From Bryobacterales bacterium (GTDB lineage Bacteria > Acidobacteriota > Terriglobia > Bryobacterales > Bryobacteraceae), in the NCBI GenBank assembly GCA_020852175.1, contig JADZBH010000041.1:1-64000 (forward strand): a DNA stretch of 64,000 nt, in the 5' to 3' direction. Shown piece by piece: positions 37,756-47,898 of the stretch; position 1 is the first letter of the stretch, and each line of letters opens with the position of its first letter. The notes below the pieces were generated by a model. That model did not search any database. It saw nothing but the letters and a program-made list of their open reading frames with translations, and had not been told where the DNA came from. Both the position numbers and the translations under genes were made by a program.

Positions 37756-38475
37756 ATGACCGTCATTTTGGTGCTTCTCACGTTCGCGGCTTTCATTCTT
37801 CTGGACTGGATCCTGGAGGAAAAACCTGTTGTCACTCCAATGCCCGAGGTAGCGGCGACCCACGCAAGAGTCACGCCGCTGCTGGATTCTGTCGAGGGTT
37901 TCCACACTCCGGCCAATGTGCGCTATCACCCAGGACACACCTGGATTCTGCGTGAGCGCAAGGGCTATGCCCGCGTTGGCATGGACGAGTTCGCCGCTGC
38001 TTTGAGCGGCGGCATCGAGCGCTTGGAACTCCCCCGTTCCGGCCAATGGATCCGCCAGGGACAGCGTGTGATCGCCGTCACGCGTCAGGGCGAACGGGTG
38101 GAACTGGTATCCCCCACCGAGGGCGAAGTAGTCGAAATCAACGAAGAGGTTCTCCGCAACCCGGCGCTGCTCCGTCAGCAACCGTATGAAAAGGGATGGC
38201 TCTTTGCCGTTCACGTGCCGGATGAGGAATCCACGTCGCGCAACCTGGTGCCCACGAATCTTGTGCGCGCCTGGATGAGCGAAGCCGTCCACGCAGTGTA
38301 CGCGCTCCAACCGCAGGCCGCCGGAGCCATCGCCGCCGATGGCGCCAGGCCCGCGGCTGACCTGCTGGCGAACCTGCCGGAGATTCCCTGGCAGTCCAAC
38401 GCCGCGGAGTTCTTCCTCACCCGAAACCACGAAAAACCGGCTGCGGCCGGCATGGCCCGCGAATTGCAGTCCTAA
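37756..38475 (+). CDS. Membrane-anchored glycine-cleavage H protein-like protein without lipoyl lysine
   Basis: N-terminal TM MTVILVLLTFAAFILLDWILEE; HTWILRERKGYARVGMDEF...PTEGEVVEINEE...PYEKGWLFAV matches GcvH landmarks. Confidence 0.85.
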   Translation: MTVILVLLTFAAFILLDWILEEKPVVTPMPEVAATHARVTPLLDSVEGFHTPANVRYHPGHTWILRERKGYARVGMDEFAAALSGGIERLELPRSGQWIRQGQRVIAVTRQGERVELVSPTEGEVVEINEEVLRNPALLRQQPYEKGWLFAVHVPDEESTSRNLVPTNLVRAWMSEAVHAVYALQPQAAGAIAADGARPAADLLANLPEIPWQSNAAEFFLTRNHEKPAAAGMARELQS

Positions 38476-38502: not shown

Positions 38503-39261
38503 ATGGCAAACGCGCTGCTGTATGACAGCACACTTTGTGTGGGATGCAAAGCCTGCGAAACGGCCTGTGCCGGGCGTTGGAAGCTTCCCTACAACGAGAA
38601 GATCGCCGAAGAGCAAACGCTTTCGGACCACAAACTCACCGTGGTGCAGACGCACGGCGAGAGCTTCGCCCGGCGCATGTGCATGCACTGCGCCGAGCCC
38701 ACCTGCGCCAGTGTCTGTCCGGTTGGCGCATTCACCAAGACGGCGCTCGGCCCGGTTGTCTACGACGCCTCCAAGTGCATCGGCTGCCGCTATTGCATGT
38801 TCGCTTGTCCCTTCCAGGCGCCGGTGTATGAATGGGGCTCCACGGCCCCCAAGGTCAGGAAGTGCGACCAGTGCCATGACCGCCAGATGGCGGGCAAAGT
38901 CACCGCATGCACGGAGGCCTGCCCCACTGGCGCCACCCTTAGCGGCGACCGTGACGCCATGATCGCCGAGGCCCGCAAACGCATCGCCGAAAACCCGGCC
39001 GGCTACTACCCGCGCATCTACGGGATTCAGGAAGCCGGCGGAACGGGAATGCTGCTGCTGAGCAAGGTCCCGTTCGAGCAGTTGGGGATGCCGAAGAACC
39101 TGCCGGACAGACCTCTGCCGCCGCTCACCTGGAACGTGCTCTCGTTCGTGCCGGACATCGCCTCGGTGGGTTCGGTTCTTCTGGGCGGTGTCTATTGGCT
39201 GACTCACCGCCGGGAGGCCGTGGCTCAAGCCGAGGACAGGCCACAAGGGGGCGTGTCATGA
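38503..39261 (+). CDS. 4Fe-4S ferredoxin-type electron transfer subunit (HybA-like) with C-terminal TM
   Basis: 252 aa; multiple CxxCxxC motifs including CVGCKACETAC, CIGCRYCMFACP, C-terminal hydrophobic helix. Confidence 0.93.
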   Translation: MANALLYDSTLCVGCKACETACAGRWKLPYNEKIAEEQTLSDHKLTVVQTHGESFARRMCMHCAEPTCASVCPVGAFTKTALGPVVYDASKCIGCRYCMFACPFQAPVYEWGSTAPKVRKCDQCHDRQMAGKVTACTEACPTGATLSGDRDAMIAEARKRIAENPAGYYPRIYGIQEAGGTGMLLLSKVPFEQLGMPKNLPDRPLPPLTWNVLSFVPDIASVGSVLLGGVYWLTHRREAVAQAEDRPQGGVS

Positions 39262-40424
39262 CCACGGCCGCGTTGCCCCTTCCCCGGCTGGACGCTCTGA
39301 GGCGGCGCATCTCCATCTGGCGCGTGATTTTCTACGCCATCATGAGCGCCGCTCTGTATACAACCTATCTGCGCGTCTTCCACGGCCTTGGCTCGGTCAC
39401 CAACCTCTCCGACCAGTTCCCGTGGGGCATCTGGATCGGGTTCGACGTGCTGTGCGGCGTCGGCCTGGCCGCCGGCGGCTTCACCCTGGTCGCCATTGTC
39501 CACATCTTCCACATCAAACGCTACGAGCCCATCCTGCGGCCGGCCATACTGACGGCCTTCCTGGGTTATCTGCTGGTCGTCGTCGCCCTGATGTTCGACC
39601 TCGGCCGTCCGGACCGCATCTGGCATCCGCTGGTCATGTGGAACCCCCGCTCCGTGATGTTCGAGGTGGCCTGGTGCGTGATGCTGTACAACACCGTGCT
39701 CGCTCTTGAATTCGCACCCGTCGTGTTTGAGCGCATGCAGTGGCGGCGCCCGATGAGGATGATCCAGTTCATCTCGCCGCCGCTGGTCATCGCCGGCGTC
39801 ATTCTCTCCACGCTGCACCAGTCCTCGCTCGGCTCGCTGTATCTGATCGTGCCGTCGAAACTCCACCCGCTGTGGTACTCGCCTCTGCTGCCGCTGCTGT
39901 TCTACATCTCGGCCATTTCGGTCGGCCTGGCCATGACGATTTTTGAAAGCTGGCACTCCGCGCGCGCGTTCGGCAAGCAACTGGAGTGGCCCCTGCTGAT
40001 GGGCCTTGGCCGCCTGCTGGCGGTTGTTCTGAGCGTCTTCCTGGTGATGCGTCTCATGGACCTGTCGCGCCGCCACGCGCTCTCCCTCGCCCTGGAACCC
40101 CGCATCGAGGTCTATCTGTTCTACGTCGAGATGCTCCTCATGGCCGCGCCCGTCCTGATTCTCTTTTCCGGCGCGACAGCCACCCGGCCCCGTCTGCTCT
40201 ATCTCTGCTCGGTGTCGGCGATCCTCGGGTTCATCGCCAACCGCCTGAACGTCAGCGTCACCGGAATTCAGGCCGTCACCGGCGCCACCTATGTGCCTCG
40301 CTGGACCGAGATCGCCATTACGCTGGGACTGGTCGCGGCGGGCTTCGCCATCTTCCGTCTGGCGGCCAAACACCTGCCTCTGTTTGAACATACGCCGCCG
40401 GGTCCGGTCCGGGAGAGTACATGA
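39258..40424 (+). CDS. NrfD/HybB-type membrane quinone oxidoreductase subunit
   Basis: Multispanning protein; LSDQFPWGIWIGFDVLCGVGLAAGGF. Confidence 0.92.
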   Translation: MTTAALPLPRLDALRRRISIWRVIFYAIMSAALYTTYLRVFHGLGSVTNLSDQFPWGIWIGFDVLCGVGLAAGGFTLVAIVHIFHIKRYEPILRPAILTAFLGYLLVVVALMFDLGRPDRIWHPLVMWNPRSVMFEVAWCVMLYNTVLALEFAPVVFERMQWRRPMRMIQFISPPLVIAGVILSTLHQSSLGSLYLIVPSKLHPLWYSPLLPLLFYISAISVGLAMTIFESWHSARAFGKQLEWPLLMGLGRLLAVVLSVFLVMRLMDLSRRHALSLALEPRIEVYLFYVEMLLMAAPVLILFSGATATRPRLLYLCSVSAILGFIANRLNVSVTGIQAVTGATYVPRWTEIAITLGLVAAGFAIFRLAAKHLPLFEHTPPGPVREST

Positions 40425-42061
40425 AGGCGCTGGAGACGTGGTCCCCTCGCGGATGGCTGCCGGGCCTGGCCGGCAAGCTGGCGGTGAGCCTTGTGCTCAG
40501 CCTGGCGGCCATTCTCCTCGTCTTCAGCATGCTGAATTTGCGCATCCAGCGGCGGCAGTCCGAGGATCTTGTTCTGCGCAGCGCCTTGCGCGTGACCGCG
40601 CTTATCCAGCGCAGCACCCGCTATCAGATGCTGCACAACGACCGGGACGCGCTGCACCAGGTCCTCAAGGACATCGGCGAGGAGAACGGCATCTCGCACG
40701 TCCGGCTGTTCAACCGCGATGGCGCCATCCGGATCGCCGCTGGCAAAGGCCCAGGCACGCCACCGGCGCCGGTCATCGACCAGGAGAATCCCAAGCCCAG
40801 TTGGCGCATTGTTCCTTCCCGGGATGGACCTTCCCCCTCGGGGCGGCAACTGAACGTTGTCCGTCCCATTCCCAACGAGGCCTCCTGCTCCAACGCCGCC
40901 TGCCACGCCCACCCGGCGTCCCACAAGGTTCTGGGCGTCATCGACGCTCATCTTTCGTTAGCCGAAGTCGATGCCCAGATCGCCGAGCACCAGAATCTGC
41001 TCGCCCGTTTCAGTCTCACCGCCATCGCCCTTCTGTGCGCCATCAGTCTCCTGTTCATTTGGCGCGTCGTCTACCGCCCGGTGCGCGCCCTACGGGTGGG
41101 CACGGCCCGCGTCGCCTCGGGCGACCTTGCCTACCGGATTCCGGAATCTTCGCGCGATGAACTGGGAGCGCTGGCGCATTCGTTCAATCACATGACCGCG
41201 GAGTTGCAGGATGCCCGCGAGGAGATCACCTCCTGGGCCCACACGCTCGAACAGCGCGTCGATGCCAAGACGCGCGAACTGGAACGCGCCCGCCGTTCGC
41301 TCGCCGCCACCGAAACCATGGCTTCGCTCGGTAAAATCTCCGCCGCCGTCGCCCACGAGGTGAACAACCCGCTGTTTGGCATCCTCACTTACGCCCGCCT
41401 GGCGCTGCGCGACAACGAAAATACGCCGGGGCAGGAGAAAACCGTGGAGCGCCTCCGCGTGATTGAACGCGAAAGCCGCCGTTGCGGCGACATCATCCGC
41501 AACCTGCTCAACTTCGCCCGGCCCCGGCAGCCCTCCCGCCAACCCACGGACCTCGCCTCGCTCGCCTCCCATGCGCTGGCTCTGCTGAAGCACCCGTTCG
41601 AGCTGCAGAACGTTGCCGTGGAACAGTCCTTCCCGCCGGATCTGCCCGCCGTGCGCTGCGACCCCGCTCAGATCCAGCAGGTGTTCGTCGCCCTTCTCGT
41701 GAACGCTGGCGAGGCCATGCGCGGCGGCGAAGGCTCCATCCACATGGCCGCCGAACATCGCGGCGACGAGGTGGACATCCGCATCGCCGACACCGGGCCG
41801 GGCATTCCCGCGGCCGTCCTTCCGCACATTTTCGAGCCCTTCTACACCACCAAGGCCGAAGCGCAAGGAACCGGACTCGGCCTAGCCGTTGCCCGCAGCA
41901 TCGTCGAACAACACGGCGGCAGCCTGTCCGCCGCCAACCGCGCCCAGGGCGGGGCCGAATTCCTCATCCGCCTGCCGGTCGCGCCTCCCGATCTCCCCAC
42001 GGTGGGCGCGGCCCCTGACGAACGCTCTGCTTTCGAGGAGACCTTCCATGGAAAACAATAG
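40421..42061 (+). CDS. Membrane sensor histidine kinase, HAMP, with periplasmic CX4CH motif
   Basis: 546 aa; two TMs, HAMP, H-box VAHEVNNPLFGI, ATPase ADTGPGIP/GTGLGLAV. Confidence 0.94.
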   Translation: MKALETWSPRGWLPGLAGKLAVSLVLSLAAILLVFSMLNLRIQRRQSEDLVLRSALRVTALIQRSTRYQMLHNDRDALHQVLKDIGEENGISHVRLFNRDGAIRIAAGKGPGTPPAPVIDQENPKPSWRIVPSRDGPSPSGRQLNVVRPIPNEASCSNAACHAHPASHKVLGVIDAHLSLAEVDAQIAEHQNLLARFSLTAIALLCAISLLFIWRVVYRPVRALRVGTARVASGDLAYRIPESSRDELGALAHSFNHMTAELQDAREEITSWAHTLEQRVDAKTRELERARRSLAATETMASLGKISAAVAHEVNNPLFGILTYARLALRDNENTPGQEKTVERLRVIERESRRCGDIIRNLLNFARPRQPSRQPTDLASLASHALALLKHPFELQNVAVEQSFPPDLPAVRCDPAQIQQVFVALLVNAGEAMRGGEGSIHMAAEHRGDEVDIRIADTGPGIPAAVLPHIFEPFYTTKAEAQGTGLGLAVARSIVEQHGGSLSAANRAQGGAEFLIRLPVAPPDLPTVGAAPDERSAFEETFHGKQ

Positions 42062-43403
42062 ACTGCGCATCCTGATCGTCGACGACGAGGCCGTTGTCCG
42101 CGAATCGCTCACGCAGTGGTTCATGGCCGAAGGCTATGACGTCTGGGCCGTGCCGGGCGGAGCCGAGGCCCTGCGTCTTCTCCAGGACCGCGCCGCCGAC
42201 CTTGCCCTGCTCGATATCAAGATGCCCGGCATGGACGGCATGGAACTCCAGGCGCGTCTCCGCGAGATCGACCCCGAGCTCACCGTCATCATCATGACCG
42301 GCTTTGCCAGCGTCGAAACCGCCATCCGCGGCCTGAAACAAGGCGCCTGGGACTACCTCACCAAGCCCATCGACCCGGACCAGCTCTCCCATGCCGTCTC
42401 CAAGGCGCTCGAACACCGGCAGGCCCGACGGGAGTTGCGCCGTCTTCGCGAGAGCCTCGAAGAGATGGCCCCGCGCGTCGAAATGGTGGGCAACAGCCCG
42501 GCCATGCGCCGGGTCATGGAGCTGGTGGACACGGTGGCCGCCACCGACGCCACCGTGCTGATCACCGGCGAAAGCGGCACGGGCAAGGAGGTGATCGCCC
42601 GCTCCATCCACGCCGCCAGTCCGCGCCGCCACATGCCCATGGTGACCATTCACTGCGGCGCCCTCACCGAAACCCTGCTTGAAAGCGAGTTGTTTGGCCA
42701 CGAGCGAGGCGCTTTCACGGGAGCCCAGTTCCGCAAGAAAGGGAAGTTCGAGGTGGCCGACGGCGGCACGGTCTTCCTGGATGAGATCAGCGACATCAGC
42801 CTGAAGACGCAAACCGACCTGCTCCGCGTGCTTCAGGAAAAAGAGATCGTACGCGTGGGCGGCACCCACGCCTTGCGCGTCGATTTCCGGTGTATCGCCG
42901 CCACGAATAGAAGGCTGGAGGATCTTGTGCAGGCCGGCGCCTTCCGCCCTGACCTCTATTACCGTCTCCACGTCGTCACCATCGACATGCCCCCGCTCCG
43001 TAACCGCCGAGAGGACATTCCCCTGCTGGTGGCCCACTTCCTGCGCAAGTTTTCCGTCGCCATGAACCTGCCGGAAACCCCGCGACTGCGCCCGGAAGCC
43101 ATGGACGCCCTGCTGCGCTACAACTGGCCGGGCAACGTCCGCGAACTGGAGAACGCCATCGAGCGCGCCCTGGTCGTGGGCCGCGGGCAGGAGATCGGGC
43201 CGTCTCACTTCGCCCTGAGTCCGGCACAGAACGGCGCCAGCGGCTGCGCCTCCCACCAGACCATGACGCTGGACGAGGTGGAGCGCGTTCACATTGAACG
43301 GGTCGTGAAAGATGCCAACAACAACTATTCGCGGGCCGCGCGCATACTCGGCATCGACCGTTCCACCTTGTACAACAAGCTGCGCCGTTATGGAACAAAA
43401 TGA
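42048..43403 (+). CDS. Sigma-54-dependent response regulator, NtrC family
   Basis: Receiver domain, GESGTGKEV, GAFTGA, C-terminal Fis-type HTH. Confidence 0.96.
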   Translation: MENNRLRILIVDDEAVVRESLTQWFMAEGYDVWAVPGGAEALRLLQDRAADLALLDIKMPGMDGMELQARLREIDPELTVIIMTGFASVETAIRGLKQGAWDYLTKPIDPDQLSHAVSKALEHRQARRELRRLRESLEEMAPRVEMVGNSPAMRRVMELVDTVAATDATVLITGESGTGKEVIARSIHAASPRRHMPMVTIHCGALTETLLESELFGHERGAFTGAQFRKKGKFEVADGGTVFLDEISDISLKTQTDLLRVLQEKEIVRVGGTHALRVDFRCIAATNRRLEDLVQAGAFRPDLYYRLHVVTIDMPPLRNRREDIPLLVAHFLRKFSVAMNLPETPRLRPEAMDALLRYNWPGNVRELENAIERALVVGRGQEIGPSHFALSPAQNGASGCASHQTMTLDEVERVHIERVVKDANNNYSRAARILGIDRSTLYNKLRRYGTK

Positions 43404-43978
43404 CGCCGGGGATCTCCCTCGTCCGGCTGGGCGACGGCGTGGACCCGGGTCTCCTCGCGCCGTTGCCTGCTGCCCTGACGTCGATTCTGCACATTCCTTG
43501 CTCGATAGAATCTGAAATATTAGATATTTCCCCGGCCTTCGATGCCGACCGCCGTCAATACCGCGTGGACCGGATCTTACAGCTCCTGTGCGACGGCATA
43601 CACCACCGGGGCGGTGTGCGCAGGTTGGGTGTGGCGGCGCATGATCTCTTCCTTCCCGTTCTCACGCATGTCTTCGGCGCGGGCCAGCTTGCGGGCTCCT
43701 GCGCCGTTGTTTCCCTTTACCGCTTGCGCGAGGAAATCTATGGCCTGGCTGAGTCGCGGCCCCTTCTGGAGGAGCGTCTCCTCAAGGAATCGCTGCATGA
43801 ACTCGGACATACGTCCGGTCTTCGCCATTGCGACGCCTGGCAATGTGTCATGTCTTCCAGCAATAGCGTGGAACTGGTTGACTTGAAATCGGCAAGGTAT
43901 TGCGTCCGTTGCCAAACATCTTTACAACGCACACTGCATGGACACGGCAGTCTCCGCTCCTCGGACCCGGCATCATGA
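43400..43978 (+). CDS. Archaemetzincin-type zinc metalloprotease
   Basis: 192 aa; HELGHTSGLRHCDAWQCVM...CVRC matches HExxHxxGxxHCx4CxM...CxxC. Confidence 0.9.
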   Translation: MTPGISLVRLGDGVDPGLLAPLPAALTSILHIPCSIESEILDISPAFDADRRQYRVDRILQLLCDGIHHRGGVRRLGVAAHDLFLPVLTHVFGAGQLAGSCAVVSLYRLREEIYGLAESRPLLEERLLKESLHELGHTSGLRHCDAWQCVMSSSNSVELVDLKSARYCVRCQTSLQRTLHGHGSLRSSDPAS

Positions 43979-44017: not shown

Positions 44018-44052
44018 CCGGTACGATGTAAAGGGTGCATGGTCTGAGTCAA

Positions 44053-45570
44053 ATGACACAACAAAATCCAAGAAAAATCGAGGTCACCGAATTAGTTCTG
44101 CGCGATGCGCATCAGAGCCTGCTGGCCACGCGCATGGCGACCGAAGATATGATTCCGGCGTGCGAGGATATCGACAAGGCCGGGTATTGGTCCGTGGAGT
44201 GCTGGGGCGGGGCCACGTTCGACTCCTGTATCCGCTTCCTGAATGAGGACCCTTGGGAGCGCCTTCGCACCTTCCGGAAACTGCTGCCCAATTCCCGCCT
44301 GCAAATGTTGTTGCGGGGGCAGAATCTTTTGGGATACCGCCACTACGAAGACACCGTTGTCGATCGCTTCGTCGAAAAGGCCGCCGAAAACGGCATGGAT
44401 GTTTTCCGCGTGTTCGACGCGTTGAATGACGTGCGCAACGTACGCCGCGCCATCCGCGCCGTGAAACGGACCGGCAAACACGCCCAGGGCACCATCTGTT
44501 ACACCATCTCGCCCCTGCACACCGTGCAGGGTTATGTCGAGTTGGCGGAAAAGCTGGTGGACATGGGTTGCGACTCTCTCTGCATCAAGGACATGGCCGC
44601 CCTGCTGAAGCCGCAACCGGCTTACGACATTGTGAGCGCCATCAAGGAATCCCTGGGCGAGGCGGTGCGCGTCCACGTCCATGTGCATGCCACCACCGGC
44701 GTCACGCTGGTCAGCCTGATGAAGGCCATCGAAGCGGGCGCCGACGCCGTCGATACTTCCATTAGCGCGCTCAGCCTCGGCCCGGGCCACAACCCCACCG
44801 AAAGCCTGGTGGAGATGTTGGAGGATACCGGTTACACCACCGGTCTCGACATGGAGCGGCTGCTCCGGATCAAGGATCATTTCGCGAAAATCCGCCCACG
44901 CTACGCGGAGTTTCTTTCCAACATCACGGGAGTGGAGACCGAGATCTTCCAGTCGCAGATACCGGGCGGCATGATCTCCAACATGGAAAGCCAGCTCAAA
45001 CAACAGGGCGCCGCGGACCGCATCAGGGAAGTGCTTGCCGAGGTGCCCCGTGTGCGCGCCGATGCCGGCTATCCGCCGCTGGTGACGCCATCGAGCCAGA
45101 TCGTGGGCACGCAGGCCGTCTTCAACGTCCTGATGGGCCGTTACAAGGTGCTTACGGGCGAGTTCGCCGACCTGATGCTTGGCTACTACGGCGAAACCAT
45201 CGGGCCGCGGAACCCCGAGGTGATCTCGCTGGCTGGCGCCCACGCCAAGAAACCCTCCATCACCCAGCGTCCGGCCGACCTGCTCACGCCTGAATGGGAC
45301 CAGTTGCGCGCCGGGGCGCTGGCGCTGGAAGGCTGCAACGGCAGCGACGAGGACGTGCTCACGCACTCCATGTTTCCTCAGGTCGCTCCGCGCTTCTTCA
45401 AGACTCGCGCCCAGGGACCGAAGAACGTGGGACGCGACCCGCGGGCGGCCGCCGCTCCGCAGCCCGCCTCCGGTGCGCCTGCCCCGGGACAGACGCCCGT
45501 CCGCACGCCCATCACCTATGAAGTGAAACTGGACGGCCGGACGCACACCGTCACCGTCACACCGGCTTAG
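44053..45570 (+). CDS. Methylmalonyl-CoA carboxytransferase 5S / oxaloacetate decarboxylase alpha-type subunit
   Basis: LVLRDAHQSLLATRM, DMAALLKP, HVHATTGV carboxyltransferase motifs. Confidence 0.93.
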   Translation: MTQQNPRKIEVTELVLRDAHQSLLATRMATEDMIPACEDIDKAGYWSVECWGGATFDSCIRFLNEDPWERLRTFRKLLPNSRLQMLLRGQNLLGYRHYEDTVVDRFVEKAAENGMDVFRVFDALNDVRNVRRAIRAVKRTGKHAQGTICYTISPLHTVQGYVELAEKLVDMGCDSLCIKDMAALLKPQPAYDIVSAIKESLGEAVRVHVHVHATTGVTLVSLMKAIEAGADAVDTSISALSLGPGHNPTESLVEMLEDTGYTTGLDMERLLRIKDHFAKIRPRYAEFLSNITGVETEIFQSQIPGGMISNMESQLKQQGAADRIREVLAEVPRVRADAGYPPLVTPSSQIVGTQAVFNVLMGRYKVLTGEFADLMLGYYGETIGPRNPEVISLAGAHAKKPSITQRPADLLTPEWDQLRAGALALEGCNGSDEDVLTHSMFPQVAPRFFKTRAQGPKNVGRDPRAAAAPQPASGAPAPGQTPVRTPITYEVKLDGRTHTVTVTPA

Positions 45571-45615
45571 AGCCGGCCGCCCTTCGCCCTCGGATTGTGG
45601 AAACGGGAGACAACT

Positions 45616-47163
45616 ATGCCCACGATGGATGAACGATTGGAACAGTTGCGCACGCGCCGTGCCGCCTTGCAGGCCGGCGGCGGCGAGGAAAAGCTGGACA
45701 AGCTCCGCGCCCAGGGCAAACAGACCGCCCGCGAGCGTATCGAGGCTCTCCTCGACCCCAACAGCTTCCAGGAAACCGGACTCTTCGCCCAGCACCGCGC
45801 CACCCTGTTCGGCATGGCGGGCAAGGAGATGGCCGCCGACGGCGTCGTTACCGGCGCGGGAACCGTGGCCGGGCGTCTGATTCACCTGGCCAGCCAGGAT
45901 TTCTCCGTGGCCGGAGGCTCGGCCGGCGAGGTCCACTCGATGAAGGTCGCCGACACCATGCAGCAGTCGCTGAAGACCGGCACGCCGTTCGTGTTCATCA
46001 ACGACTCCGGCGGCGCGCGCGTGCAGGAGGGCATCGACTCGCTGTCCGGTTACGGCAAGGTGTTCCACACGAACGTCATGCTGAGCGGCGTCGTACCTCA
46101 GATCTCGCTCATCTGCGGCCCGTGCGCGGGAGGCGCCGCCTACAGCCCGGCGCTCACCGACTTCATCATTCAAACCCGCAAAGCCCAGATGTTCATCACG
46201 GGACCCGGCGTCATCAAACAGGTCACCGGCGAGAACGTCACCGCCGAGCAACTCGGCGGCCCCGACGCTCATATGGTCCACTCGGGCGTGATTCACTTCA
46301 TCGCCGAGGACGACGCCGAGGCCGCGCTGCTCTGCCAGAAACTGCTCAGCTTCCTGCCCTCGAATAATCTCGAGGACCCGCCCGAGTTCCCCACCGACGG
46401 CAACGTCGATCCGAACGAGGCGCTGAACACCCTGGTGCCCATCGAAGGGAAACAGGCCTATGATGTCCGCGACGTCATCGTGAACATCGTGGACTCAGGC
46501 GACTTCCTGGAAGTGCAGTCCGGCTACGCTCCCAACATCGTCATCGGGTTTGCCCGCATTCTCGGCCGCACCGTAGGCCTCGTCGGCAACCAGCCCAAGG
46601 TGAACGCCGGCGTGCTCGACATCAACGCCTCGAACAAGGCGTCCCGCTTCATCCGCTTCTGCAACGCGTTCAATATTCCGCTGGTCACCTTCGTGGATGT
46701 CCCCGGCTTTCTGCCCGGCGTGCAGCAGGAGTACGGCGGCATTATCCGCCACGGAGCCAAGATGCTGTTTGCCTACTCGGCCGCCACGGTCCCCAAGGTG
46801 ACCATTATTCTGCGCAAGGCTTTCGGAGGCGCTTACCTGGCCATGTGCGGCAAGGACCTGGGCGCCGACCGCGTCTTCGCCTGGCCCGCGGCCGAGGTGG
46901 CCGTCATGGGCGCCGAGGGCGCCGCCGAGATTGTCTTCAAGCGGGAAATCGATGCCGCCGTGGATAAGGCCGCCAAGCGCCGGGAAATGATCGAGGAGTA
47001 CCGGGAGGCGTTTTCCACGCCCTATGTCGCCGCCGGACGCCGTCTGGTCGATGACATCATAGAACCCGCCGGCACGCGCCGCGTCATTGCCCGGACACTC
47101 GAATACCTGCACACGAAGCGCGAACTGCGGCCGTCCAAGAAGCACGGCCTCATCCCGCTCTAA
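45616..47163 (+). CDS. Acyl-CoA carboxyltransferase (12S, methylmalonyl-CoA type)
   Basis: SGGARVQEGIDSL, PCAGGAAYSPALTDF, VDVPGFLPGVQQEYGGIIRHGAK. Confidence 0.95.
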   Translation: MPTMDERLEQLRTRRAALQAGGGEEKLDKLRAQGKQTARERIEALLDPNSFQETGLFAQHRATLFGMAGKEMAADGVVTGAGTVAGRLIHLASQDFSVAGGSAGEVHSMKVADTMQQSLKTGTPFVFINDSGGARVQEGIDSLSGYGKVFHTNVMLSGVVPQISLICGPCAGGAAYSPALTDFIIQTRKAQMFITGPGVIKQVTGENVTAEQLGGPDAHMVHSGVIHFIAEDDAEAALLCQKLLSFLPSNNLEDPPEFPTDGNVDPNEALNTLVPIEGKQAYDVRDVIVNIVDSGDFLEVQSGYAPNIVIGFARILGRTVGLVGNQPKVNAGVLDINASNKASRFIRFCNAFNIPLVTFVDVPGFLPGVQQEYGGIIRHGAKMLFAYSAATVPKVTIILRKAFGGAYLAMCGKDLGADRVFAWPAAEVAVMGAEGAAEIVFKREIDAAVDKAAKRREMIEEYREAFSTPYVAAGRRLVDDIIEPAGTRRVIARTLEYLHTKRELRPSKKHGLIPL

Positions 47164-47172
47164 GGAGACGCC

Positions 47173-47508
47173 ATGGCATCGGAACTGCGATTGGAATGTA
47201 AGTTTCAAATGGCGGAGATGGAGGCCCAGATCCATGATCTGAAGGCGAAGATCGAGGCTCTGGAGCGCCGGTTCGCCGCGGCATCCGCCGCCACCCCTCC
47301 GGCCGCCAGGGCAACGCCGGCTCCGAAAGCCGCTCCCCCGCCGCCGGGCATTCCGGAGGAGGTTTTGCTCGCTATCTCGGCCGCCGTCGCCGCCTTCCTC
47401 GGCAAGCGCGGACACATCCGCCAGATCCGTCTGGCGAGTTCCCCGGCCTGGGCTCAGCAGGGGCGCGCCTCCATCCAGGCCTCACACGGCATCGTCGTGC
47501 AACGTTAG
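47173..47508 (+). CDS. Small accessory subunit resembling OadG/MmdE-type C-terminal tail
   Basis: 111 aa between 12S and biotin carrier; coiled coil, Ala/Pro linker, EEVLLAISAAVAAFLGKRGHIRQIRLASSPAWAQQGR. Confidence 0.65.
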   Translation: MASELRLECKFQMAEMEAQIHDLKAKIEALERRFAAASAATPPAARATPAPKAAPPPPGIPEEVLLAISAAVAAFLGKRGHIRQIRLASSPAWAQQGRASIQASHGIVVQR

Positions 47509-47520
47509 CGGAGATTGAAC

Positions 47521-47898
47521 ATGAAACTGAAAGTTACGGTGGATGGCAAGACCTACGAGGTGGACGTGGAGGTGGCCGAGGATCCTCACCCGGCGCCGGC
47601 CGCCTACATGACTCAGCCCGCCCCCGTGCGGGTGCCCGCCGCCGGAGCGCCGCCCGTGCCGCCCGCCCCCTCGCCGGAGGATGGCGGCAAGGTGTGCCGC
47701 AGTCCCATCTCGGGTATCGTCGTCAAGATCAGCGCCCAGCCCGGCCAGCAGATTCAGCCCGGCGACATCCTGATTGTCCTGGAGGCCATGAAGATGGAGA
47801 CCAACATCACCGCGCCCGTGGCCGGCAAGGTCGCCGCCATCAAGGTGAACGTAGGCGACAATGTCCAAAGCGGGCAGGTGGTCGTCGAATGCGAATAG
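47521..47898 (+). CDS. Biotin carboxyl carrier protein (1.3S)
   Basis: 126 aa; biotinylation motif EAMKMET. Confidence 0.95.
   Translation: MKLKVTVDGKTYEVDVEVAEDPHPAPAAYMTQPAPVRVPAAGAPPVPPAPSPEDGGKVCRSPISGIVVKISAQPGQQIQPGDILIVLEAMKMETNITAPVAGKVAAIKVNVGDNVQSGQVVVECE

Follow-up and report, generated by a model that had tools for sequence, protein, structure and literature searches.

A lysine-less relative of the glycine-cleavage H protein, with a predicted membrane anchor, in a conserved NrfD-type gene cluster of Acidobacteriota

The H protein (GcvH) of the glycine cleavage system ordinarily bears a lipoic-acid arm on one lysine. In LbpA, the GcvH-like protein of the sHdr sulfur-oxidation pathway, the lipoyl lysine is present in 95 of 95 aligned sequences, and a pair of cysteines is strictly conserved among most LbpA proteins (Cao et al. 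2018, PMC6067878). A review of the NrfD proteins lists QrcD only from Deltaproteobacteria and makes no mention of glycine cleavage or GcvH (Calisto and Pereira 2021, PMC8076601). Our search of the open-access literature found no published description of the lysine-less GcvH-like family treated here.

The gene described here lies in a window of 64,000 nucleotides (the whole stretch of DNA that was analysed) from a Bryobacterales bacterium. It begins with the ATG at 37756 and ends with the stop codon at 38473-38475, and its product of 239 amino acids is composed of a transmembrane (TM) helix at residues 2-21, an H-protein domain at about 51-165 and a C-terminal extension at about 165-225. The features of the gene are as follows.

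37756..38475, + strand: gene of the lipoyl-less GcvH-like protein (Pfam, AlphaFold2 model, Foldseek; lysine column occupied by Gly112)
38068..38109, + strand: codons of the lipoyl hairpin, residues 105-118, VIAVTRQGERVELV (ungapped HMMER alignment to the E. coli H-protein; model)
38089-38091, + strand: codon of Gly112, the canonical lipoyl-lysine position (HMMER alignment; model, with residues 111-112 at the tip of the hairpin)

The assignment to the H-protein fold, which the sequence-only reading had made from landmark residues, is borne out by the Pfam GCV_H match (E=1.2e-20; score 74 bits, cut-off 22.2 bits; residues 56-169) and by the top PDB sequence matches, which are H-proteins (E. coli 3a8i, 1.7e-14). 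A single-chain AlphaFold model, for which 42 family members served as input, has a mean pLDDT of 83, rising to about 95 in the H-domain and about 90 in helix 2-21. With Foldseek, the PDB yields 22 matches at E<=0.001, each of them a GcvH or GcvH-like chain, with TM(target) values of up to 0.89 against solved GcvH and an rmsd of 1.8 Å. The same reading had proposed an N-terminal membrane anchor and a C-terminal extension. The former holds as far as sequence and model reach, helix 2-21 being hydrophobic and kept across the family, and the latter is present, with a conserved ADGG/ADGA...W...FF pattern throughout the family.

In the alignment, which is ungapped over the hairpin, the lipoyl lysine of the E. 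coli protein (ESVKAASD) faces Gly112 (TRQGERVE), and a Thr replaces the Glu of ESVK three residues before the site. The hairpin strands occupy residues 104-110 and 113-118 of the model, and Q111-G112 therefore forms the tip. The earlier claim that the lysine column is occupied by Gly is thus upheld by alignment and predicted structure alike; an alternative lysine at the tip, sought in the model, was not found there. Lysines occur only at positions 23, 69, 146 and 227, with none from 70 to 145, and the 239 residues include no cysteine; the protein therefore has none of the residues to which lipoyl, c-heme or Fe-S would conventionally be attached. With the barrel free of lysine and the ESVK motif missing, the predicted inability to carry a lipoyl arm in the usual way also stands.

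The extent of the family was assessed by searching 60 related genomes and by scanning 85,462 species genomes, from which the best 80 of 342 relatives were taken. On this sampling its centre is in the Bryobacterales/Solibacter-type Acidobacteriota, and outliers carry the labels Desulfarculales, Planctomycetota and Vicinamibacteria. The survey of lysine loss proposed at the outset gave a uniform answer: in an alignment of four canonical H-proteins and 134 Acidobacteriota-centred homologue entries (overlapping sets, with tandem and Qrc-linked copies included), the lipoyl column is without Lys in every one of the 134, and Gly is its most frequent residue. The invariant or near-invariant positions include YHxGHxW, GxD, QG, PxEGE, N, PYxxGW and, towards the C-terminus, DG(G) and W. 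As judged from these alignments, loss of the lipoyl lysine is an old, family-wide trait. In a tree of the H-domain the lysine-less sequences are set on one long branch apart from ten canonical ones, with modest support (0.64), a separation that does not order the events within the family. Lys appears in the aligned column in 3 of the 79 non-canonical sequences of the tree set, outside any ESVK context. Beyond the Acidobacteriota, 94 of 297 genomes (about one third) sampled from the phylum to which the Desulfarculales MAG belongs (assumed to be Desulfobacterota) encode a family member at E<=1e-25, and many of them hold several.

Many relatives carry N-terminal Cys-rich repeats (e.g., CVWMKAGVVNFRTCDRGYDCFNCPFDRAM, in four copies in L198). 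Such repeats are found in the protein encoded at L198:11705-13033, for which no Pfam family was matched outside GCV_H, and in GcvH-like genes of L191, L194 and L195; they are possible Fe-S or Zn modules.

Downstream of the GcvH-like gene the window contains five genes on the same strand.

38503..39261, + strand: HmcB/HybA-like 4Fe-4S subunit with a C-terminal TM helix and no Tat signal (NCBIfam HmcB 6.5e-73, HybA 1.2e-56)
39258..40424, + strand: HmcC/HybB-type NrfD membrane subunit (Pfam NrfD 1.2e-25, NCBIfam HmcC 4.8e-96)
40421..42061, + strand: HAMP histidine kinase with an extracytoplasmic CSNAACH (CX4CH, c-heme-like) motif (Pfam, motif counts in relatives, window sequence)
42048..43403, + strand: NtrC-type sigma-54 response regulator (Pfam Sigma54_activat 1.2e-69, Response_reg)
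43400..43978, + strand: archaemetzincin-type metalloprotease, HExxHxxGxxHCx4CxM...CxxC motif intact (Pfam M54 1.1e-23, NCBIfam archmetzin 6.1e-42)

The start of the NrfD gene was set by its ATGA overlap with the Fe-S gene, and the NrfD and kinase genes overlap by ATGA as well; the regulator likely starts at the ATG at 42048, the longest ORF beginning at 41889. This gene order, from the GcvH-like gene through to the archaemetzincin, is that of the family, with varying flanks. For 52 loci the sequence extends 6.5 kb or more downstream; 47 of them have the Fe-S gene and 47 the NrfD gene, 49 the kinase, 49 the regulator and 48 the archaemetzincin, and 44 have the complete set in identical order. 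In three loci (L114, L116 and L128) the GcvH-like gene is accompanied by the kinase, the regulator and the archaemetzincin, and the Fe-S and NrfD genes are absent; the bond to the regulator is therefore at least as tight as that to the complex. As a rule the gene goes together with NrfD in Acidobacteriota, but it is accompanied still more constantly by the two-component system and the archaemetzincin.

The adjacency of the NrfD membrane protein, one of a quinone-interacting kind, and the 4Fe-4S subunit in the window is a feature of NrfD-type, CISM-like systems. A Tat signal is absent from the Fe-S subunit in 68 of the 69 genome-scan relatives, and the window copy has an in-frame stop just upstream. 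The Fe-S relatives of Desulfobacterota have a Tat signal, and their C-terminal TM helix shows the same charge pattern, with a positive tail. In the extracytoplasmic part of the cluster kinases (L065-L144), CxxCH occurs in 63 and CX4CH in 66 of the 69, about 43 residues apart, and most of these kinases therefore look like c-heme sensors. Such paired heme motifs suggest sensing through c-heme; in the window kinase and the two kinases closest to it only the CX4CH is left, the CxxCH having been lost. Of the 52 archaemetzincin copies in the clusters, 51 have an intact motif. It is conceivable, as speculation, that the target of the protease is the ADGG motif, found both in the GcvH-like proteins and in a small TM protein of some relatives.

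Directly downstream of the cluster (44035-47898) are a PYC_OADA-type gene, an acyl-CoA carboxyltransferase-like gene (assigned by reading, without a Pfam scan), a short gene and a gene for a biotin-carrier-like protein (EAMKMETN). This set resembles a biotin-dependent decarboxylase or carboxylase and, among the loci compared, is confined to the same genus.

Other relatives are associated with different redox partners. Acidobacterial loci (L055:6166-12879, L057:6169-12768 and similar loci in L053-L063) encode a Qrc-type operon composed of the small TM protein (C-terminal sequence MADGGEPV), a Cys-rich GcvH-like protein, homologues of QrcA to QrcD, and a second GcvH-like protein that has a TM helix and four cysteines. 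QrcA scores above the NCBIfam cut-off, its neighbours are QrcB-, QrcC- and QrcD-like, and both GcvH-like proteins are lysine-less. In the Desulfobacterota clusters that were opened, some members adjoin Tat-bearing HmcB-like subunits and NrfD. The GcvH-like gene of L191 adjoins HdrA-like and CCG (HdrB-like) genes, and the GcvH-like domain is fused to the C-terminus of an HdrA-like protein in L198 (1134 aa) and of a FlpD/Molydop_binding protein in L199 (972 aa). The cassette of kinase, regulator and archaemetzincin often persists without NrfD (L191, L194, L196, L197, L198). The finding is thus wider than the initial claim about a single gene: a lysine-less H-protein branch goes with respiratory and Hdr-type complexes, and does so in two phyla or more.

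The reading that we favour, with a probability of roughly 0.6, is that the H-fold protein is an N-terminally anchored, cofactor-free docking or scaffold subunit of NrfD- and Hdr-type redox complexes, under kinase/regulator control by redox state. The protein would be held at the membrane by its N-terminal helix, with the H-domain probably in the cytoplasm. This orientation is suggested by the flanks of the anchor: in 42 aligned family members K/R residues are missing before the TM helix and average 2.6 after it, and 33 members are net positive. The corresponding flank of the window protein (LEEKPV) lacks the positive charge and is an exception to the family, and its orientation therefore rests on the relatives. 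The protein would dock on the NrfD/Fe-S complex, or in relatives on Hdr- or Qrc-type partners, through the surface of the H-domain and the conserved C-terminal ADGG extension, the docked domain acting as a cofactor-free scaffold or adaptor. Control of the cluster would fall to the heme-type kinase and the sigma-54 regulator, which would respond to redox state. A repurposed scaffold had been suggested from the sequence alone; it is still the function that fits best, and the docking role in NrfD-, Qrc- and Hdr-type complexes is one that we infer.

The constancy of the regulatory genes could also be taken to mean that the anchored H-fold protein is a signalling partner, which senses the state of the complex or relays it to the heme-type histidine kinase and is perhaps processed by the archaemetzincin. 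The loci that keep kinase, regulator and archaemetzincin without the Fe-S/NrfD genes (the three above, together with L194, L196 and L197), the frequency of CxxCH and CX4CH in the kinases and the intact protease motif all favour such a role. However, relatives fused to HdrA-like and FlpD catalytic proteins, or set in Qrc operons, are typical of enzyme subunits, and the sensor region of the kinase would be periplasmic whereas the H-domain is more likely cytoplasmic; we consider this explanation unlikely.

The retained fold and landmarks (YHxGHxW, DPYGxGWL) could in principle dock T-protein or lipoyl ligase, and the protein might then regulate or compete with the glycine cleavage system or the lipoate attachment enzymes. 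A PF01597 search of the 5.0-Mb genome returned two matches: besides the window gene there is a canonical GcvH (ESVKAVSD), encoded between gcvT and gcvP on a separate contig. The placement of the window gene in a respiratory operon, away from gcvTHP, its membrane anchor and the fusion of its relatives to HdrA/FlpD make a competitor of this kind very improbable.

We give still less credit to the idea that a displaced lysine carries a lipoyl or comparable arm. A Lys does follow the hairpin tip by one residue in many Desulfobacterota relatives (e.g., VDSKTIDM) and by two in many Acidobacteriota relatives (GEK), but neither is invariant, A, V, R and Q occurring as well. In the window protein these positions are occupied by Glu and Arg, and a shifted lipoyl lysine is ruled out there by the lysine-free barrel and the missing ESVK. 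Finally, a decaying, functionless GcvH duplicate, to which the loss of the one cofactor-bearing residue might point, is dismissed by the low dN/dS (0.13 with an orthologue of 88% identity and 0.115 with one of 78%, hence purifying selection at about 0.12), by conservation in many genera and several phyla with the gene order fixed, and by the conservation of the extra segments; the pseudogene reading is thereby ruled out.

For the docking or scaffold subunit we count the fold, the lack of a carrier residue, the family-wide loss, the intact canonical GcvH, purifying selection, the cluster, the redox partners that recur in relatives (Qrc operons, the HdrB-like neighbour and the fusions to redox enzymes) and the charge of the anchor flanks in the family. 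Against it we count L114, L116 and L128, with their missing Fe-S and NrfD genes, the LEEKPV flank, and the Tat-less Fe-S subunit as opposed to the Tat-bearing relatives of Desulfobacterota, a difference that bears on the membrane side at which the complex would work. More tentatively, at somewhat less than even odds, the H-fold may have been recruited once, and early, as a cofactor-free module (with its C-terminal ADGG segment) of Hmc/Hyb-, Qrc- and Hdr-like complexes in Acidobacteriota and Desulfobacterota, controlled by a common kinase/sigma-54/archaemetzincin cassette. If so, the family would represent an undescribed class of respiratory-complex subunit. Annotation pipelines read H-protein-like domains as glycine cleavage proteins or lipoyl carriers; given the widespread lysine-less branch, the label "GcvH" may mislead for many genes of Acidobacteriota and Desulfobacterota. 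Unrecognised subunits may also be present in complexes of the kind used for sulfate reduction and anaerobic respiration.

Compared with the described systems, the window protein shares with GcvH the fold (TM about 0.88), the landmark residues and the GCV_H Pfam family, and differs from it in having an N-terminal TM anchor and a C-terminal ADGG extension and in lacking the lipoyl Lys and ESVK. It scores 75.7 bits with NCBIfam gcvH (TIGR00527), below the cut-off of 115.85, and its gene has no gcvT or gcvP neighbours. With these three defining features (lipoyl Lys, TIGR00527 score, gcvT/gcvP linkage) missing, it is not a GcvH in function. The likeness to LbpA lies in a GcvH-like protein devoted to a redox pathway, and members of the present family are likewise found beside or fused to Hdr-like proteins. 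Both features of LbpA, the lipoyl lysine and the two cysteines, are missing from the window protein, which rules out that identity.

For the Fe-S and NrfD subunits of the window, the closest counterparts are those of the Hmc complex (HmcB, HmcC) and of hydrogenase-2 (HybA/HybB). HmcB and HmcC are the best-matching families, at scores below the curated cut-offs (245.5 versus 420 bits and 322.3 versus 550 bits, respectively). Unlike these complexes, the window cluster has no hydrogenase gene, its Fe-S subunit is Tat-less and a GcvH-like subunit is added; no HmcA-type multiheme cytochrome was found among the ORFs listed around the cluster. The Qrc menaquinone reductase (QrcABCD), a set not found in the window genome (92.5% complete), is matched by the relatives in L055 and L057, which add to it two lipoyl-less GcvH-like genes.
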